In this document: one piece after another, positions 15,894 through 40,913 of the stretch
How the letters are laid out: each line of letters starts with the position of its first letter
How positions within the stretch are numbered: the first letter of the stretch is position 1
Origin: Candidatus Nomurabacteria bacterium GW2011_GWE2_34_25
GTDB lineage: Bacteria; Patescibacteriota; Minisyncoccia; Phycocordibacterales; UBA9973
Assembly (NCBI GenBank): GCA_000990325.1
Contig: LBPS01000013.1
Coordinates: 1 to 41,473, forward strand
Direction: 5' to 3'
DNA: 41,473 nt
Made by a program: the position numbers and the translations under genes
The notes under the pieces: generated by a model
Told to the model about the DNA's origin: nothing
The model's input: the letters and a program-made list of their open reading frames with translations, nothing else
Databases searched by the model: none

Positions 15894-16019
15894 AAGCACG
15901 CAAACTTCATAAAATTGCTCTCGGACTCACCACACATATTTTCTTGCTAGAAAATTGCTCTTCTCGCCCCGTCGGTCTGCGAAAGGGTTCGCTCGAGAGC
16001 AATTTTATTGCGTTTGCTT
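15894..16019. repeat. Fold-back repeat family B, copy 1
   Basis: Arms ATAAAATTGCTCTCG / CGAGAGCAATTTTAT with core CGGACTCACCACAC...TTGCTC...GTCGGTCTGCGAAAGGGTTCGCTCGAG. Confidence 0.75.
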
Positions 16020-21541: not shown

Positions 21542-21562
21542 TCGTATTTTAAAAATTTAAAC

Positions 21563-21720
21563 CTATGTATTTGGAAGTGAGGTGTGATTCCTCCACTGTG
21601 CCGCAACGGTAATGCTCGTAAGAGATAAGTCCGATCTTAATACAATGGTGACCCCCGAGCAGGAGAAATCTACTATTATCTTTAGATAAAAGCCCCTGCG
21701 AAAGCAGGGGCTTTTATTGT
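21563..21720 (+). promoter_or_regulatory. Cobalamin riboswitch with downstream terminator
   Basis: GGAAGTGAGGTGTGATTCCTCCACTGTGCCGCAACGGTAA ... AAGTCCGATC...GGTGACC, then AGCCCCTGC-GAAA-GCAGGGGCTTTTATT. Confidence 0.8.
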
Positions 21721-21745: not shown

Positions 21746-22267
21746 ATGAAAACAAAAGAACAAAAAATTTTAATAGGAGGTTTGGTTATTTTATTAATTT
21801 TTATTATAAGCTTTCTCTATTTAAATTTTAATAGCAAAGAAAGTTTTGTAATTGATACTTTTAAGAAAGACGCTCAAATAGAAAATCTTCCAGAGCCACC
21901 TTCTACAAAAGAAGCAGTAAAAGTAGAAAAAGTATTACAGATAGAGTCTAAGGCTCTATCTGTAAATATGATCAAAGTTTCTTTAAATGTTTTCGATAAA
22001 AAATATGAAGTAGAGACAAAAGAAGGGACATCGGTGTTCGAAATGATGAAAATATTGGAAGAGAAGAGCACTCCTCTTAATACATTTAGCTTCCAATATA
22101 AAGAAGTTTCAGGATTGGGAAGCTTTATTACAGAGATAAATGGAGTAAAGGGAACTCCCGGGAAGTACTGGATGTATTATGTGAACGACAAGCTCGCTTC
22201 CGTCGGAGTCTCGCAATATATACTAAAAGATGGAGATATTATTAATTGGAAAAATGAAGGGATATAA
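21746..22267 (+). CDS. DUF4430 (transcobalamin C-terminal-like) membrane-anchored protein
   Basis: N-terminal TM; GTSVFEMMKILEE...FITEINGVKGTPGKYWMYYVNDKLASVGVSQYILKDGDIINW. Confidence 0.8.
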   Translation: MKTKEQKILIGGLVILLIFIISFLYLNFNSKESFVIDTFKKDAQIENLPEPPSTKEAVKVEKVLQIESKALSVNMIKVSLNVFDKKYEVETKEGTSVFEMMKILEEKSTPLNTFSFQYKEVSGLGSFITEINGVKGTPGKYWMYYVNDKLASVGVSQYILKDGDIINWKNEGI

Positions 22268-22270
22268 TTT

Positions 22271-24388
22271 ATGATAAAAAATATTTTAAAAAAGTTTATA
22301 GTTTTGTTTGGAATAGGATTTATTTTATTTGGATTTAATTTTACAAATGTAAATGCTGAAGAAATTTTTACACCTACACCACTTGAATGTACAGCACCTC
22401 AAATATTAAACGAAGCAGGGGATACTTGCGTTGACGTAGTCGCAACACCAGCAGTTTTAGTGTGTGTTCTACCTCAAGTAGAAGTTGCTGGAGTATGTAC
22501 TACTCCAGCAGTAGAGCCCACACCAGATCCTGTTCCAGACAAATTAAAAGAGCAAGTTGTTATTAGAAATGGAGATATTATCTTGTATGATGGATTTTAT
22601 GAACTACCCGAGTCAGGAATAATTTCGATTCCAGATAAAGATGGTGTTGCTCATGATATAGATGCACGTAGTGTCCTCGCTATATTTTACGGTATTGATA
22701 ATACTAGTGATAACTTTTCAATTTCTACGTTGGAATATAGTGGTGTTTATGATTCTCTGTACATGAAATGCTTAACTCCAAGTGGAGGAGAGAGCCTTTG
22801 TGATAACTGGCAGTATGTCGTAAACGATTCCTATCCATACGTTGGGATGGACAAAAATGTTTTAAGTGGAAATGAAAAAATTTACATATACTTTGGACAA
22901 CAGAATAGAGTTCTCTTAAATAAAAATTCAATAAAAGATAACGAAGAATTAAATATTACTGCTGAAAAGTATGACTATGAGCATAATCTTTGGCTTTCTC
23001 GTAGTGGGGTTACTGTAGGAGTTACCAAACCTGATCCAAATAATCCTTGGTCTCCAAATGATGAGATTCAAAAAAGGGTTGATGATACAACAGCCGTCGC
23101 CACTTTTTTATCTGTACCAGAGGGTGAATACAATGTAGGAATTAAAGAGGATTATTATTGGCCAACAGAAAAGCTAGTTGTTACTAAATTTGTTCCAGAA
23201 AATAATGGTGGTGGAGGTCCTATTACTCCTTTACCTCCTAAAACTTTTTCTATTTCAAAAGCTTTCGAATTCCTTTTATTAAACCAGAAGAGTGACGGCT
23301 CATTTGGATCTCCAATGTATACAGACTGGGTAGCGATAGCCTCCAAAGCGGGGGACAATGCCGACTTGAAATCAAAACTTGCAAATTATCTTAAATCAAA
23401 TCCTATAGATAGTGGAGTGGTCACTGACTATGAGAGGCGAGCGATGGCATTGATGGCTCTCGGTATAAATCCGTACAATGGGACAGATATAAATTATATA
23501 AATAAAATAATAGACAGCTTCGATGGAACACAATTTGGAGACACGAGCTTAATAAATGATGACATCTTTGCTTTGATAGTTTTAAAAAATGCTGGATATA
23601 CTGGAAGTGATGAAAAAATAGCTAAGGATGTTGATTATATAGTTTCTAAGCAGTTCTCAGATGGTTCATGGGGAAGTATAGATATGACAGGAGCAGGAAT
23701 ACAAGCCTTGAGAGGTTTTGAAAATATAAATGGAGTAGGTGAGGCAATATCAAAAGGAGAATCTTATTTAGTTTCAAATCAAAAAAGTGATGGAGGGTTT
23801 GGAAATTCTTTTGCAACATCTTGGGCATTGCAATCATTATTTACTAATAGCAATATATTAAGAGCAGAAGATTACTTAGTTTTGAAGCAACAGATAGACG
23901 GTGGATTAGAAAATATTGGTGATGACATAAACACTCGTGTATGGTCTACAGCTTACGCTATCCCAGCTATTCTACATAAACCATGGAGTAGTATAATGGA
24001 TAATTTCTCTAAGCAAGAAGTGGCTCCGTCATCATCACCATCATCTTCTTCTACGTCTTCTGGGTCGGAAGAAATAAAAAAGGAAATTGCCACTCCTGTT
24101 ATAGCAGTAGAAGAGAAGAAAGATATAGAAGTACTTCCAAAATTAGAAGATAAAAAAATAACTAAGTTAGCAATAAAACCAATAGTAAAAACAAGCGTAG
24201 TAAAAAATATAAAAGTAGAGAAGCCTGTATCTCAAAAATTAAAAGAGGAGGTTGTAAGGGGAAATCCTCTTTCTGCTAGCGCCATAGGGGCGAGCGAGTC
24301 AAATAATGGCTTCTTGTCTATAATTCATAATCTGATATCGAAGATAAAAGCTCCGTTTGTCTGGCTTCTTGTTAAGCTTGGATTCTGA
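22271..24388 (+). CDS. Secreted transcobalamin-like protein: DUF4430-like domain plus alpha/alpha-barrel prenyltransferase-type repeats, C-terminal anchor
   Basis: Signal peptide; LCDNWQYVVNDSYPYVGMDKNVLSGNEKIYIYFG; repeats SDGSFGSPMYTDWVAIA, SDGSWGSIDMTGAGIQALRG, SDGGFGNSFATSWALQSL. Confidence 0.75.
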   Translation: MIKNILKKFIVLFGIGFILFGFNFTNVNAEEIFTPTPLECTAPQILNEAGDTCVDVVATPAVLVCVLPQVEVAGVCTTPAVEPTPDPVPDKLKEQVVIRNGDIILYDGFYELPESGIISIPDKDGVAHDIDARSVLAIFYGIDNTSDNFSISTLEYSGVYDSLYMKCLTPSGGESLCDNWQYVVNDSYPYVGMDKNVLSGNEKIYIYFGQQNRVLLNKNSIKDNEELNITAEKYDYEHNLWLSRSGVTVGVTKPDPNNPWSPNDEIQKRVDDTTAVATFLSVPEGEYNVGIKEDYYWPTEKLVVTKFVPENNGGGGPITPLPPKTFSISKAFEFLLLNQKSDGSFGSPMYTDWVAIASKAGDNADLKSKLANYLKSNPIDSGVVTDYERRAMALMALGINPYNGTDINYINKIIDSFDGTQFGDTSLINDDIFALIVLKNAGYTGSDEKIAKDVDYIVSKQFSDGSWGSIDMTGAGIQALRGFENINGVGEAISKGESYLVSNQKSDGGFGNSFATSWALQSLFTNSNILRAEDYLVLKQQIDGGLENIGDDINTRVWSTAYAIPAILHKPWSSIMDNFSKQEVAPSSSPSSSSTSSGSEEIKKEIATPVIAVEEKKDIEVLPKLEDKKITKLAIKPIVKTSVVKNIKVEKPVSQKLKEEVVRGNPLSASAIGASESNNGFLSIIHNLISKIKAPFVWLLVKLGF

Positions 24389-27350: not shown

Positions 27351-27360
27351 AAGGAATGAA

Positions 27361-27479
27361 TCCCGTTAGAAGCCGCGGTCACGGGATAAAAAAGTAAATT
27401 AATAATAAATATTTTAAATAAAAAATAGTAAGTTGTGTTAGTTATAGAAATATAACGACCGCGACCTGCTTCTAACGGG
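27361..27479 (+). mobile_element. Non-coding start-codon element (family A), copy 1, 119 bp
   Basis: TCCCGTTAGAAGCCGCGGTC ... GACCGCGACCTGCTTCTAACGGG; flanked by ATGAA (27356-27360 and 27480-27484). Confidence 0.85.
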
Positions 27480-28694
27480 ATGAAATTTAAATATAAAGAA
27501 CAAAGTAAAGAGGGGAAAATTATTGAAGGGATTGCAGAATCTCCTGATATGTTTGCTTTAGCTAAAGAGATAAGAGAGCAGGGTGGGGTTCCTCTTTCAA
27601 TCAAAGAATTTAATGAAAAAGGCATTAAAAATATTGTAAACTTTGATGTATTTACCGGAGTTTCACTCTCTGAAAAGATTATGTTTACTAACAATCTTAG
27701 TGGAATGCTTTCAGCTGGTCTTGCTCTTACGCGAGCACTTTCAGTTTTAGAAAAACAGACATCTAATAAATATTTCAACGGTGTTTTAAAAAGTTTAATT
27801 GACGACATTAACGGAGGAGGCACACTTTCTTCTGGAATGAAAAAGTTTCCGAAAGTTTTTTCTGGGGTATTTGTTTCAATGGTGCATTCAGGAGAAGAAT
27901 CTGGTGGCTTACCTAGGACTCTTTCTGAAATAGGTATCACACTAAAGAAAACTTATGATCTAAATAAAAAGATTAAGGGAGCACTTATATATCCAAGTGT
28001 TATACTTTTTGCTATTTTTGCCATTGGAATATTAATGATGATATATGTGGTACCAACACTTACTGCAACATTTAAAGATGTAGGAATGGAATTGCCTGCT
28101 TCAACACAATTTATAATATTTATATCCGATTCCCTTAAAGACCACTTTTTACTTTTTGCTACAGCCATGGCTGCATTCATTGGGTCTTTTGTAGCTTTTG
28201 CAAAACTTAAATCAACACAAAAATATTTTGATCTCATTATACTTAAAATTCCATTACTTGGAACTCTGATTAGAGAGATGAATACAGCCAGGACAACTCG
28301 GACTTTATCCTCCTTGATTTCATCGGGAGTTGATCTTTCGAGAGCTTTAACTATTACAGAAGAAGTTTTGCAAAATGTTCATTATAAAAAATTAATACAT
28401 GATGCTGTTCTTTCTATAGAGAAAGGAGTTTCACTCTCTGCTTCTTTTAAGAAACACCCGGAACTTTATCCTATTATGGTAGGTGAAATGATTGAAGTTG
28501 GAGAAGAGACTGGTAAATTATCTTCTATGCTTATGGATATAGCCAGCTTTTATGAAAATGAAGTAGATGACAAAACGAAAAATTTATCAACTATTATAGA
28601 GCCAGTATTAATGGTGTTCATCGGAGCTGCTGTAGGATTCTTTGCTGTTGCGATGATTAAACCGATGTATTCGGTTATGGATAGTATAAAATAA
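27480..28694 (+). CDS. pilC: Type IV pilus inner-membrane protein (PilC/GspF family)
   Basis: FKYKEQSKEGKIIEGIAES; duplicated T2SF domains; three TM helices. Confidence 0.9.
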   Translation: MKFKYKEQSKEGKIIEGIAESPDMFALAKEIREQGGVPLSIKEFNEKGIKNIVNFDVFTGVSLSEKIMFTNNLSGMLSAGLALTRALSVLEKQTSNKYFNGVLKSLIDDINGGGTLSSGMKKFPKVFSGVFVSMVHSGEESGGLPRTLSEIGITLKKTYDLNKKIKGALIYPSVILFAIFAIGILMMIYVVPTLTATFKDVGMELPASTQFIIFISDSLKDHFLLFATAMAAFIGSFVAFAKLKSTQKYFDLIILKIPLLGTLIREMNTARTTRTLSSLISSGVDLSRALTITEEVLQNVHYKKLIHDAVLSIEKGVSLSASFKKHPELYPIMVGEMIEVGEETGKLSSMLMDIASFYENEVDDKTKNLSTIIEPVLMVFIGAAVGFFAVAMIKPMYSVMDSIK

Positions 28695-32895: not shown

Positions 32896-33012
32896 TCCCG
32901 TTAGAAGCCGCGGTCGCAGTTTCTATTTGTGGATTAGTATAAAAATAATTATTTAATTTAATCAAGCAATGTAGGTTCTATTAAAAATAGACCGCGACCT
33001 GCTTCTAACGGG
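32896..33012 (+). mobile_element. Non-coding start-codon element (family A), copy 2, 117 bp
   Basis: Same arms as copy 1; flanked by ATGAA (32891-32895 and 33013-33017). Confidence 0.85.
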
Positions 33013-34137
33013 ATGAAATCAATAAAAGACATAGAAAATTTGAAAGGGAAACATGTAATTGTCCGCGTAGACTTCAATGTTCCACAAGATAAAGATGGAA
33101 AGATTCTAGATGATTTTCGTATTAAGTCTATACTTCCGACAGTAGAATATTTACAGAAAAAGGGAGCTATAGTAATACTAGTTGCACATATTGGTGAAGG
33201 TGGAGAGAAGAGCTTAAAGCCTGTTGCTATAAGGCTCAAAAAGTATCTTCCAAACATTAAATTCATCGAGTCATCTATCTTTTCAGATGAGACTAAAAAA
33301 ATTACAGGGACTCTTAAGAATGGAGATGTTGCACTTTTTGAAAATTTACGTAGAGAAATAGGAGAGAAGACGAACTCCCCATCTTTTGCTAGAGGTCTTT
33401 CCCGTTTTGGAGATATATATGTGAATGATGCTTTCTCTGTATCGCATCGAGTCCACGCTTCTATCGTTGGTATTACAAAATATTTACCAAGTTATGCAGG
33501 GCTTCAACTTATAGATGAGATAAATAATTTGTCGAAAGCTTTTAATCCCAAAAAACCTTTTTTGTTTATTTTGGGTGGTGCTAAATTTGAAACTAAGATT
33601 CCTTTGATTAAAAAATTTCTTCGTGATGCGGATCATGTATTTATCGGAGGAGCTATCGCCAACGATTTCTTTAAAGGTAAGGGTTATGAAGTAGGAACAT
33701 CTTTAGTGAGTGATGGTATGGTTCAAGTAAAATCTTTTTTTAAGAATAAAAATTTAGTTATACCGACTGATGTTGTAGTTACCAAAGGAAGCCTAAGTCG
33801 CAATGTTAAGCCAAGTGATGTAACGCACGATGAATGCATTGTCGATATTGGCAAAGATTCAGTTGAGGTGATAAAGGGTCTTATAGAGAAAGCACAGTTT
33901 GTGCTTTGGAATGGACCGCTTGGGATATATGAAAGTGGCTTTGGAAGTGCGACAGAAAATATTCTTAAAATTCTTTCCAAGAGTAAAGCTGTCAGTATTG
34001 TCGGAGGAGGGGACACTGTGGCCCTCATTACAAAACTAAAACTAGGTGATAAGCTCGGCTTCGTCTCAACTGGCGGTGGCGCCACTCTCGACTTCCTAGC
34101 CAAAGGCACTCTACCGGGGATAAAAGCATTGAAATAA
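33013..34137 (+). CDS. pgk: Phosphoglycerate kinase
   Basis: VIVRVDFNVPQD, LGGAKFETKIPLI, WNGPLGIYE, VGGGDT. Confidence 0.95.
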   Translation: MKSIKDIENLKGKHVIVRVDFNVPQDKDGKILDDFRIKSILPTVEYLQKKGAIVILVAHIGEGGEKSLKPVAIRLKKYLPNIKFIESSIFSDETKKITGTLKNGDVALFENLRREIGEKTNSPSFARGLSRFGDIYVNDAFSVSHRVHASIVGITKYLPSYAGLQLIDEINNLSKAFNPKKPFLFILGGAKFETKIPLIKKFLRDADHVFIGGAIANDFFKGKGYEVGTSLVSDGMVQVKSFFKNKNLVIPTDVVVTKGSLSRNVKPSDVTHDECIVDIGKDSVEVIKGLIEKAQFVLWNGPLGIYESGFGSATENILKILSKSKAVSIVGGGDTVALITKLKLGDKLGFVSTGGGATLDFLAKGTLPGIKALK

Positions 34138-36360: not shown

Positions 36361-36489
36361 AATAAAACACTCCATAAAAAAATTCTCGGACTCACCACAC
36401 AATAAAATTCTGCTGAATTTTTTGCTCGTACTCGGGCCGTCGCCCTCCGTAAGGGTTCGCTCGAGAACATTTTTATTACGTGTTTTATT
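36361..36489. repeat. Fold-back repeat family B, copy 2
   Basis: Arms AATAAAACAC...TTCTCG / CGAGAA...GTGTTTTATT with core CGGACTCACCACAC...TGCT hairpin...GGGCCGTCGCCCTCCGTAAGGGTTCGCTCGAG. Confidence 0.75.
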
Positions 36490-37879: not shown

Positions 37880-38473
37880 CTATGAAGCATTTTTGAAATT
37901 TTGTTCAATTATACTCCAATTTAAATTTGCAAAAAAACTCTCGATGTACTTTTTCTTTTCTGCTGGAGTATAGTCCAGATAGTAAGAGTGTTCCCACATA
38001 TCAAGAGCAAGTACTATAGAAGTTCCAGCTAGGTGGCCTAGGTGTTGCTCGTCTACCCAAGAGATAATTAACTTGTCGCTTGATTTGTCATAATAAAGCA
38101 TAGCCCAACCAATACCACGGGTTAATGCGACAAATTTAAAATGATTTAAGAAATTTTCAAAAGAACCCCATTCTTTTTCTAATGATTTATATAAAGATCC
38201 TTCTTTATTTATTTCTTTACTTCCATCAGAAAGAGAAGAGAAGTAGTATTCATGATTGCGCATGCCACCGAATTCAAAACCGAGGCGACGTTGTAGCTCT
38301 CCTAATATAAAAGCGTTTTTCTCTGGATCATTTTTTAATTCATATAATTTATTAAATATTGTATTTGTGTTTGTCACGTAACCCTTATAAAGCTTTCGAT
38401 GCTCTTCAATTGTTTTTTCACTGATACCAACCAATTTTGGTATATTAAATGTTTTTGTTGTGAATGTTTCCAT
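37880..38473 (-). CDS. Fe/Mn superoxide dismutase family protein
   Basis: RLGFEFGGMRNHEYYFSSL, WAMLYYD, LALDMWEHSYYLDY. Confidence 0.9.
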   Translation of the reverse strand: METFTTKTFNIPKLVGISEKTIEEHRKLYKGYVTNTNTIFNKLYELKNDPEKNAFILGELQRRLGFEFGGMRNHEYYFSSLSDGSKEINKEGSLYKSLEKEWGSFENFLNHFKFVALTRGIGWAMLYYDKSSDKLIISWVDEQHLGHLAGTSIVLALDMWEHSYYLDYTPAEKKKYIESFFANLNWSIIEQNFKNAS

Positions 38474-38592
38474 CCCGCTTAGAGACAGGTCGCGGTCGGT
38501 ATATATAATCTTGATAACAACGACTAGTCTTTATATTATTTATTAATTTATTTTATTTTTGTTAGAAACTGTGACCGCGGTCTCTAACGGGA
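38474..38592 (-). mobile_element. Non-coding start-codon element (family A), copy 3, 119 bp
   Basis: Minus strand: TCCCGTTAGAGACCGCGGTC...GACCGCGACCTGTCTCTAAGCGGG; flanked by ATGGA (minus strand; TCCAT at 38469-38473 and 38593-38597). Confidence 0.85.
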
Positions 38593-38644: not shown

Positions 38645-38703
38645 TCCCGTTAGATATCTCTATTTATCAAACAGGCCATAATTATTCATAATATCTAACT
38701 GGG
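38645..38703 (+). mobile_element. Short, probably decayed family A copy 4, 59 bp
   Basis: TCCCGTTAGATAT ... ATATCTAACTGGG directly abutting ATG at 38704; no intact target duplication. Confidence 0.6.
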
Positions 38704-39576
38704 ATGGAACTAAATAGAAAAAATCTACCATATTTACTCCTCATAATTCTACTTATTTGCACTATTGGTATATGGTTTTTTATTTTTAAGAGTAATCGTC
38801 AGAATGATTATCTGAAAGTTGTATTTTTGGATGTGGGGCAAGGAGACGCTATATACATAGAAGCTCCAAATGGAAAGCAGATGCTTATCGACGGAGGACC
38901 AGATGCAAGTCTTCTGTCGAGACTTTCTCAAGTTATGCCTTTTGCAGATCGATCTATAGATATAATACTTGCCACTCATGCTGACATGGATCATATAGGA
39001 GGATTTCCACTTTTGTTAGATAATTATAAAATTAAAAACATTATTGAAAATGGAGCAGAAGGGGATTCTAAAATTTATACAAGCTTAGAAGAAAAAATCA
39101 TAAAGAAAAAAATAAATAAAGTAATTGCTAAAAGAGGCATGCAAATTATGCTAGATAAAAAAAGAAATATTTATTTTGATATTATTTTCCCTGATAGGGA
39201 TGTATCAAGTTTTGAAAGTAATGATGGCTCAATAGTAGGGAAGCTTACGTATGGAGAAAGTACTTTCATGCTGACGGGAGATGCTACAACTTATACAGAG
39301 AATTTAATAGGCTGGAATGAAAGTGACGCTATTTTAGACTCTGATGTTTTAAAACTTGGACACCATGGATCCCGAACTTCTTCGGGTATTCCTTGGCTTG
39401 AAAAGGTAAGCCCTGAAGTTGCGATTATCTCTGTCGATAAAAATAATAAATATGGGCATCCACATAAAGAAATTCTTGATAGGCTTTCATTTTTACAGAT
39501 TCCGTATTTGAGTACTTCTGATGTGGGGAATATAATTTTTAAGAGTGATGGAATGAAACTAATATACGCAAAATAG
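38704..39576 (+). CDS. Membrane-anchored MBL-fold hydrolase, ComEC C-terminal-domain-like
   Basis: VVFLDVGQGDAIYIEAPNGKQMLIDGG, ATHADMDHIGG, LTGDATT, LKLGHHGSRTSS. Confidence 0.9.
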   Translation: MELNRKNLPYLLLIILLICTIGIWFFIFKSNRQNDYLKVVFLDVGQGDAIYIEAPNGKQMLIDGGPDASLLSRLSQVMPFADRSIDIILATHADMDHIGGFPLLLDNYKIKNIIENGAEGDSKIYTSLEEKIIKKKINKVIAKRGMQIMLDKKRNIYFDIIFPDRDVSSFESNDGSIVGKLTYGESTFMLTGDATTYTENLIGWNESDAILDSDVLKLGHHGSRTSSGIPWLEKVSPEVAIISVDKNNKYGHPHKEILDRLSFLQIPYLSTSDVGNIIFKSDGMKLIYAK

Positions 39577-40007: not shown

Positions 40008-40283
40008 TCCCGTTAGAGATAATTATGTATTACTACACTTATGTATTAAAAAGTAAGAAGGATGGTAAATTTTACACTGGATTTACAAATGATCTACGGA
40101 AGCGCCTTTCATATCATAATAGTGGTAGGTCTATCTATACAAAAGGTAGAGGCCCATTCGTTGTTGTTTATTATGAAGCATGTTTAGAAAAAGAAAAAGC
40201 AATGTCGAGAGAATTATATTTAAAATCGGGAATGGGCAAGCGTTATCTTAAAAATAGATTAGGCGCTTCCTATCTCTAACGGG
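40008..40283 (+). mobile_element. Compact GIY-YIG-encoding inverted-repeat element (family A, coding copy), 276 bp
   Basis: TIRs TCCCGTTAGAGATA / TATCTCTAACGGG; flanked by ATGCAA (40002-40007 and 40284-40289). Confidence 0.85.
40025..40279 (+). CDS. Single-domain GIY-YIG endonuclease
   Basis: YYTYVLKSKKDGKFYTGFTNDLRKRLSYHNSGRSIYTKGRGPFVVVYYEACLEKEKAMSRELYLKSGMGKRYLKNRL. Confidence 0.92.
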   Translation: MYYYTYVLKSKKDGKFYTGFTNDLRKRLSYHNSGRSIYTKGRGPFVVVYYEACLEKEKAMSRELYLKSGMGKRYLKNRLGASYL

Positions 40284-40913
40284 ATGCAAGCCATAGATGG
40301 AATATTTTATATAGTAGTACTTATAATGTCTGTAGTGGTTCATGAAGTAGCTCATGGATACACAGCCTATCTTCTTGGTGACAATACAGCTCGCAATAGT
40401 GGACGTCTTACTTTAAATCCTATCAAACACCTTGATCCTTTTGGCTCTGTTATCCTTCCTTTACTTCTTGTCTTTATGAATGCTGGCTTTGTCATCGGTT
40501 GGGCAAAGCCTGTACCTTATAACCCCGCAAATCTTCGTGATGAGAGGAAAGGAACCTTTCTTGTATCAGTTGCAGGAATAGTTGCGAACCTTATACTCGC
40601 TATTGTCTTTGGATTACTTATGAGGTTTGCCCCTTTATTTATAGGTGTTGCTTTTCTTGGAGCATTTTATAAAATCGCATCTATTATTGTTTTATTAAAC
40701 TTAGTACTTGCACTGTTTAACCTAATACCTATTCCACCTCTTGATGGTTCAAAAATTTTGTTTTCATTTTTACCTGTTAAATATAGGTATATAGAGAACT
40801 TTCTAGAAAAGTGGGGAATGTTTCTACTTCTCTTTTTCATCCTTGTGCTTTGGAGTAAAGTGGCTCCTATAATTTTCATAGCTTTTCATTTAATTACAGG
40901 GATTTCTATTTAA
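40284..40913 (+). CDS. Site-2 protease family (M50) metalloprotease
   Basis: VVVHEVAHGYTAYLLGD (HExxH), NLIPIPPLDGSKIL. Confidence 0.92.
   Translation: MQAIDGIFYIVVLIMSVVVHEVAHGYTAYLLGDNTARNSGRLTLNPIKHLDPFGSVILPLLLVFMNAGFVIGWAKPVPYNPANLRDERKGTFLVSVAGIVANLILAIVFGLLMRFAPLFIGVAFLGAFYKIASIIVLLNLVLALFNLIPIPPLDGSKILFSFLPVKYRYIENFLEKWGMFLLLFFILVLWSKVAPIIFIAFHLITGISI

Follow-up and report, generated by a model that had tools for sequence, protein, structure and literature searches.

The pilC/gspF gene of this Candidatus Nomurabacteria genome begins at the foot of a short hairpin that is likely to belong to a family of small mobile DNA elements specialised for start codons. In its long form, the element consists of two terminal inverted repeats and a GIY-YIG nuclease gene, while the short forms, such as the one at pilC, would be its non-coding, MITE-like relatives. 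Insertion at the exact first codon, with the codon rebuilt, is a repeated event, and the genes concerned, including essential ones, stay intact. Five copies, one of them short and divergent, occur in the window (the whole stretch of 41,473 nucleotides that was analysed), where all of them abut a start codon:

27356-27360, + strand: left-hand ATGAA of the target duplication (former start codon)
27361-27480, + strand: short non-coding hairpin element at the pilC/gspF start codon; its last base is the A of the start ATG
27480-27484, + strand: right-hand ATGAA of the target duplication, with which pilC begins; relatives with an empty site have the same N-terminus, MKFKYKEQ
32896-33013, + strand: second copy, at the start codon of phosphoglycerate kinase (pgk); flanks ATGAA 32891-32895 and ATGAA 33013-33017
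38473-38592, - strand: third copy, at the start codon of Fe/Mn superoxide dismutase (SOD); flanks ATGGA and ATGGA; right arm imperfect
38645-38704, + strand: short divergent copy (TCCCGTTAGATAT...ATATCTAACTGGGA; 60 bp) that abuts the first codon of a metallo-beta-lactamase-like ORF (38704-39576); duplication not clear
40008-40284, + strand: long-form copy, abutting the start codon of an M50 peptidase; flanks ATGCAA 40002-40007 and ATGCAA 40284-40289
40025-40279, + strand: GIY-YIG nuclease ORF of 84 aa, sole gene of the long form; Pfam GIY-YIG 1.1e-16, UPF0213 structure 1zg2 6.8e-12

The initial annotation of the pilC junction had described a hairpin at 27361-27479 between two ATGAA copies (27356-27360 and 27480-27484), the second of which opens the PilC/GspF ORF (27480-28694), and the window sequence and ORF call bear out this description. 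The palindrome is one pair longer than first described, the left T pairing with the A of the downstream ATG, so that the element is better written 27361-27480 and its last base is the A of the pilC start codon. The hairpin folds at -45.4 kcal/mol, compared with a shuffle mean of -21.8 (z = -6.9; none of 200 shuffles as stable), and it is not a chance structure, as the same genome carries at least 11 copies of the family. At about 120 nt, it is too short for a group I or group II intron. A search of the genome of the window (G000) with a 129-base query found six places and the right-end pattern added more, which together give at least 11 copies; the short divergent copy at 38645-38704, found by eye, is left out of this count of 11. 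Nine of the 11 lie directly at an ORF start. A diverged copy (C12:21675-21685, L012) lies within the rRNA operon, immediately ahead of the 23S gene, and another (C5:81778) is followed by an ATG that opens a 4-codon ORF only. The rRNA gene insertions described in CPR bacteria (PMC11270868) are group I-like introns with LAGLIDADG nucleases. The window also holds a different pair of partly palindromic repeats of about 110 bp (CTCGGACTCACCACACA...CGCTCGAGA; 15904-16013 and 36369-36481), which are 82-85% alike and adjoin gene ends.

The family is made of directional hairpin elements of about 110-125 bp, the length in most copies being 107-122 bp, with ends TCCCGTTAGAnnn...nnnTCTAACGGGA. A two-arm palindrome pattern that does not include the ATG (CCCGTTAGA N86-116 TCTAACGGG) is present in 25 of 61 related Paceibacterota genomes, the reversed pattern used as a control having no match in any of the 61, and copy number by this pattern ranges from 0 to 25 per genome within the genus. 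Public genomes contain the right end of one subtype in 110 stretches. Among the matches listed, the titles that name a lineage are from Patescibacteria/Paceibacterota (Nomura-, Kaiser-, Taylor-, Zambryski-, Yanofsky-, Moran-, Komeili-, Buchanan- and Sungbacteria, and others), save for one Bacteroidia bin (L328) that may reflect a binning error; several titles say only 'bacterium'. The element is not described in the papers covered by our literature search. Viral carriage was considered and rejected: 59 contigs contain the 14-mer CTTCTAACGGGATG but none has the paired left arm, so that these matches are due to chance. An Rfam scan of the window returned no family match for the element, the only hits being a tRNA and an AdoCbl (B12) riboswitch at 21547-21677 (51.4 bits, gathering 50). 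This riboswitch lies upstream of a DUF4430 ORF (21746-22267) and of an ORF at 22271-24388 with a weak, below-cutoff cobalamin-binding match; the three could make up a locus for B12 capture in what is a very small genome.

In an alignment of 19 sequences, the outer stem comprises 13 bp and the inner stem about five pairs, with a 4-nt bulge, in most cases TCCT or ACCT, on the side of the ATG. Double compensatory changes are found in 11 of the 18 stem pairs, and the unconstrained stem positions 11-13 are paired in 85-88 of 89 copies, compared with 63-68 after shuffling. At pilC in G023, the outermost pair has changed from T-A to C-G, whereby the start codon has become GTG. Such compensatory changes can arise in any inverted-repeat element whose ends are recognised alike, and they therefore demonstrate pairing or symmetry rather than a function of the RNA. 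The conserved one-sided bulge and the fixed direction point to recognition of a folded single strand, either DNA or RNA. The strong conservation of the structure, with its compensatory changes, immediately ahead of start codons might suggest cis-regulatory RNA leaders, of riboswitch or attenuator type, that are kept for their function at host genes. This is highly improbable given that the target genes are unrelated, that the same orthologues occur in close relatives without the element, that copy number varies from none to 25 in one genus, and that target-site duplications, a poorly conserved interior and the missing Rfam match also count against it.

Mobility is indicated by the duplicated flanks and by the orthologous sites. 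The element lies between two copies of ATGN(N), and the downstream one takes its A from the right end of the element. Of 89 copies, 66 have at their right end a repeat of the 4-6 nt, ATG included, that precede the element on its left; the duplicated sequence varies from site to site and matches within a site (ATGAA, ATGGA, ATGAG, ATGTA, ATGCAA, ATGG, ATGA). If the A is counted to the element, the duplication consists of TG and 1-3 further nucleotides, that is 3-5 bp, a variable length that is unlike that of a strict transposon and counts against the proposed explanation. Relatives have empty pilC sites, as in L196 (...CAGAATAAAATTAA|ATGAAATTTAAATAT), L193, L195 and L208; pilC in G003, G012, G019, G017, G018 and G002 is preceded by a short continuous junction that ends in ...|ATGAA(A/G)TTT. 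G000 and G023 share an element subtype at pilC, and G001 has a variant with TCCCGTACGAGAT ends. The pgk site is empty in G004, G012, G019, G003 and others, and is occupied by three different subtypes in G000, G023 and G007. A nested insertion is visible in L166, where an element stands at a start codon that had been rebuilt by another, leaving three copies of ATGAA. These empty sites and the variable, matching flanks support the earlier proposal of a precise insertion with a duplication that contains the ATG; uninserted junctions were found among relatives, and the continuous, unrelated intergenic region that would have contradicted this proposal did not occur. In G004 (L192, bases just before 1501), an unrelated perfect hairpin (CCACATGTCGGACTTGTGG...) occupies the same junction, which suggests that the pilC junction is open to several types of elements. 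The short forms are thus non-coding elements with 13-bp outer arms and a target duplication, present in multiple copies and polymorphic at orthologous sites, as is the case for MITEs.

Identical protein N-termini (MKFKYKEQ, MKSIKDIENL) in filled and empty alleles make it very probable that translation truly starts at the downstream ATG. Its retention in 88 of 89 copies, compared with 68 of 89 for the upstream ATG, is consistent with this assignment.

Specificity for start codons was assessed on 69 copies collected with the ATG-free pattern. An ATG directly follows CGGG at the right end in 68 of them and opens an ORF of at least 50 codons in 63, while none has an ATG facing its left end. In the full set, the right ATG is the first of its open frame in 77 of 83 cases. 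Across the two genomes with the best coverage, start codons represent 3% of all ATGs, and 32% of start and non-coding ATGs; with 32% expected and independence simply assumed, 63 of 69 is far from chance (P ~1e-24), a value that is indicative only, since copies in related genomes are not all independent events. Genes with an element at their start include pgk, pilC, ssb and topA. These genomes are gene-dense (about 91% coding by a simple ORF call) and most insertions elsewhere would be harmful, which raises the question of whether insertion is random, the survivors being those that rebuilt a start codon or fell between genes. Such an absence of targeting is unlikely, because non-coding positions away from starts are available and almost unused, and the observed 63 of 69 far exceeds the 32% expected among tolerated ATGs. 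In addition, palindrome scans over 463 kb of G000 and the whole of G017 (693 kb) indicated that the palindromes abutting ORF starts belong to the TCCCGTTAGA family only; none of the approximately nine copies of the CCCCACACC... inverted-repeat family, also linked to GIY-YIG genes, was beside a start codon in these same genomes. A preference for leaderless promoters is not clearly seen, as a -10-like hexamer precedes 47% of targets compared with 41% of all genes.

The long form connects this start-codon family with a protein. It measures about 278 bp, with terminal inverted repeats as in the short form and an interior that is nearly all GIY-YIG ORF; in the window, it lies 12.5 kb downstream of the pilC element and the stop codon of its ORF (40025-40279) falls inside the right terminal repeat. 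The same terminal repeats flank a lone GIY-YIG ORF in at least six genomes, in the sense direction and at the start codons of unrelated genes. The protein has a single domain (PF01541), matches PDB 1zg2 and has a weak match to group I intron endonucleases. The right ends of long and short forms are similar in G000, G005 and G048, as exemplified by CTTCCTATCTCTAACGGG, found in the long form and in one short copy of G000, so that the short forms are plausibly derived from the long one. A close GIY-YIG copy (E < 1e-28) is present in 7 of 15 genus genomes with short elements and in none of 9 without. The element-rich genomes G023, G006 and G009 have no close GIY-YIG gene, and G023, which has the most copies, has distant GIY-YIG genes only; this is the weak side of the proposed explanation. 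Start codons are also where some close homologues with different ends (TCACGTATGAAAT) are found (L062, L066). In more distant GIY-YIG genes, both the ends and the locations differ, a number of them being close to tRNA genes; L067, L077, L082, L083 and L084 are directly beside tRNA genes, which suggests that other nuclease lineages use other targets. An inverted-repeat family (ACCCCCACACCTATATTTTTAT) also surrounds GIY-YIG genes (G017 L351-L406; L079, L085), with about seven copies in G017 and two in the part of G000 scanned, and is never adjacent to a start codon.

From these sequence comparisons, the element is probably moved by its GIY-YIG nuclease. The protein would recognise the hairpin ends and make a staggered cut at the start codon; insertion and repair would then duplicate the 3-5 bp formed by TG and the next 1-3 nt, and the downstream gene would regain an intact ATG, which would explain why insertion is tolerated even before essential genes. 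Because the role of the enzyme is deduced, the element is placed with the MITE kind. Another possible mover is a Y1 (IS200-like) tyrosine transposase, acting in trans on non-autonomous hairpins as in REP/RAYT systems, with the GIY-YIG gene as a passenger. The bulged directional hairpins and the left sequence repeated at the right end do resemble the IS200/IS605 and REP style, and G000 has three Y1_Tnp genes, some being also found in 19 of 24 genus genomes. However, the three Y1 genes of G000 are flanked by other hairpins (e.g. TGCACTAGGTCTTGCCTAGTGCA) with no CCCGTTAGA end within about 1.5 kb, G018 (7 elements) and G009 (3) have no Y1 match, and flanks that vary between sites and match within a site are unlike a fixed cleavage motif. 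Mobilisation by a Y1 enzyme is thus quite unlikely.

If the GIY-YIG protein is the mover of these start-codon insertions, the element would represent a new class. The chances appear evenly divided that there exists a class of bacterial transposable elements with a single-domain GIY-YIG nuclease as its only protein and the start codon as its target, whose terminal base replaces the A of the ATG, which can spread through the essential genes of gene-dense genomes without breaking them, and whose hosts initiate translation at an AUG right below a stable hairpin. If true, the element would have found a way to spread in a minimal genome, by choosing the single position within a gene at which it restores what it disrupts, and the single-domain GIY-YIG proteins that are common in these genomes would gain a concrete role.

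A stable stem directly before an AUG would normally hinder initiation, which counts against the insertion model. Genes in G000 and G017 give a picture of the initiation signals involved. A TATAAT-like hexamer lies 3-14 nt before the ATG in 41% of genes, compared with 14% in the shifted control, with a peak at 6-7 nt, while Shine-Dalgarno (SD)-like motifs are found in 8% of genes compared with 14% in the control; the corresponding values for the target genes of the element are 47% (-10-like) and 4% (SD-like). This pattern is the signature of leaderless transcription, and these genomes thus appear to be leaderless and poor in SD motifs. The idea put forward in the initial annotation, that the element separates a Shine-Dalgarno motif from the start codon, is consequently weak and unlikely to be the main point. 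At a leaderless gene, insertion would yield an mRNA that begins near AUGNN, continues with the stem and then reaches the second AUGNN. Translation most likely initiates at this downstream AUG, judging from the sequence. In what is the least certain part of the proposal, the downstream ATG might be used after RNase III has cut in the stem or, alternatively, the AUG at the foot of the stem might be accessible to an SD-independent ribosome. RNase III is encoded in G000. Transcripts of Correia elements are cut in the stem by this enzyme (PMC10969869), and a hairpin before the AUG is tolerated in T4 genes 38 and 25 (PMC3014915).

The matched take-off and landing codons that flank the hairpin in most copies, and an upstream AUG that is often where a leaderless transcript would begin, recall translational bypass, in which the ribosome would start at the upstream AUG and hop over the hairpin to the identical downstream AUGNN, with precedents in T4 gene 60 and the byp elements of yeast mitochondria (PMC5009743). 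Bypass is nevertheless very unlikely, as 21 of 89 copies have lost the upstream ATG whereas 88 have kept the downstream one, and in 67 of 68 cases the upstream reading frame terminates within the element. These stops, together with element lengths that fall in all three frames, also led to the rejection of an in-frame fusion of the element to the protein. An internal promoter at the right end was likewise rejected on inspection, no -10-like hexamer being present at the usual 6-7 nt and the nearest candidate, TCTAAC, lying 3 nt away with 4 of 6 matches. Initiation at the downstream AUG raises a testable question, namely how the Paceibacterota ribosome, without Shine-Dalgarno help, deals with an AUG placed directly behind a stem of about 20 bp in basic genes.

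The element shares features with several known systems. As in the split ribosome-binding sites of T4 genes 38 and 25, where initiation works with a hairpin just before the AUG (PMC3014915), the stem precedes the start codon; however, in T4 the hairpin brings the SD closer to the AUG, and it is not known to be mobile, whereas SD motifs are rare here. Directional imperfect hairpin ends are shared with REP/RAYT and IS200/IS605 elements, which use a different enzyme, and the RAYT genes of G000 have other hairpins. Free-standing GIY-YIG homing endonuclease genes and UPF0213-type proteins likewise encode a single-domain GIY-YIG nuclease, but homing genes copy themselves into the same allelic site, whereas the present family, with its terminal repeats and duplications, is found at many unrelated sites that have little in common except a start codon. 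Rickettsia palindromic elements (RPEs) are mobile palindromes of 105-150 bp tolerated in unrelated conserved protein genes (PMC2229807); they are translated in frame within the protein, unlike the present elements, which remain outside the protein, exactly before codon 1. A resemblance in size and build also exists with the Correia/NEMIS, ERIC and RUP MITEs, which are non-autonomous, about 100-150 bp long, and have terminal inverted repeats, a target duplication and a long RNA stem-loop (PMC10969869, PMC2229807). Those elements are mostly intergenic and the reviews consulted mention neither start-codon targeting nor a GIY-YIG partner, whereas the present element ends on the first base of the start codon and has a coding relative with a GIY-YIG nuclease.
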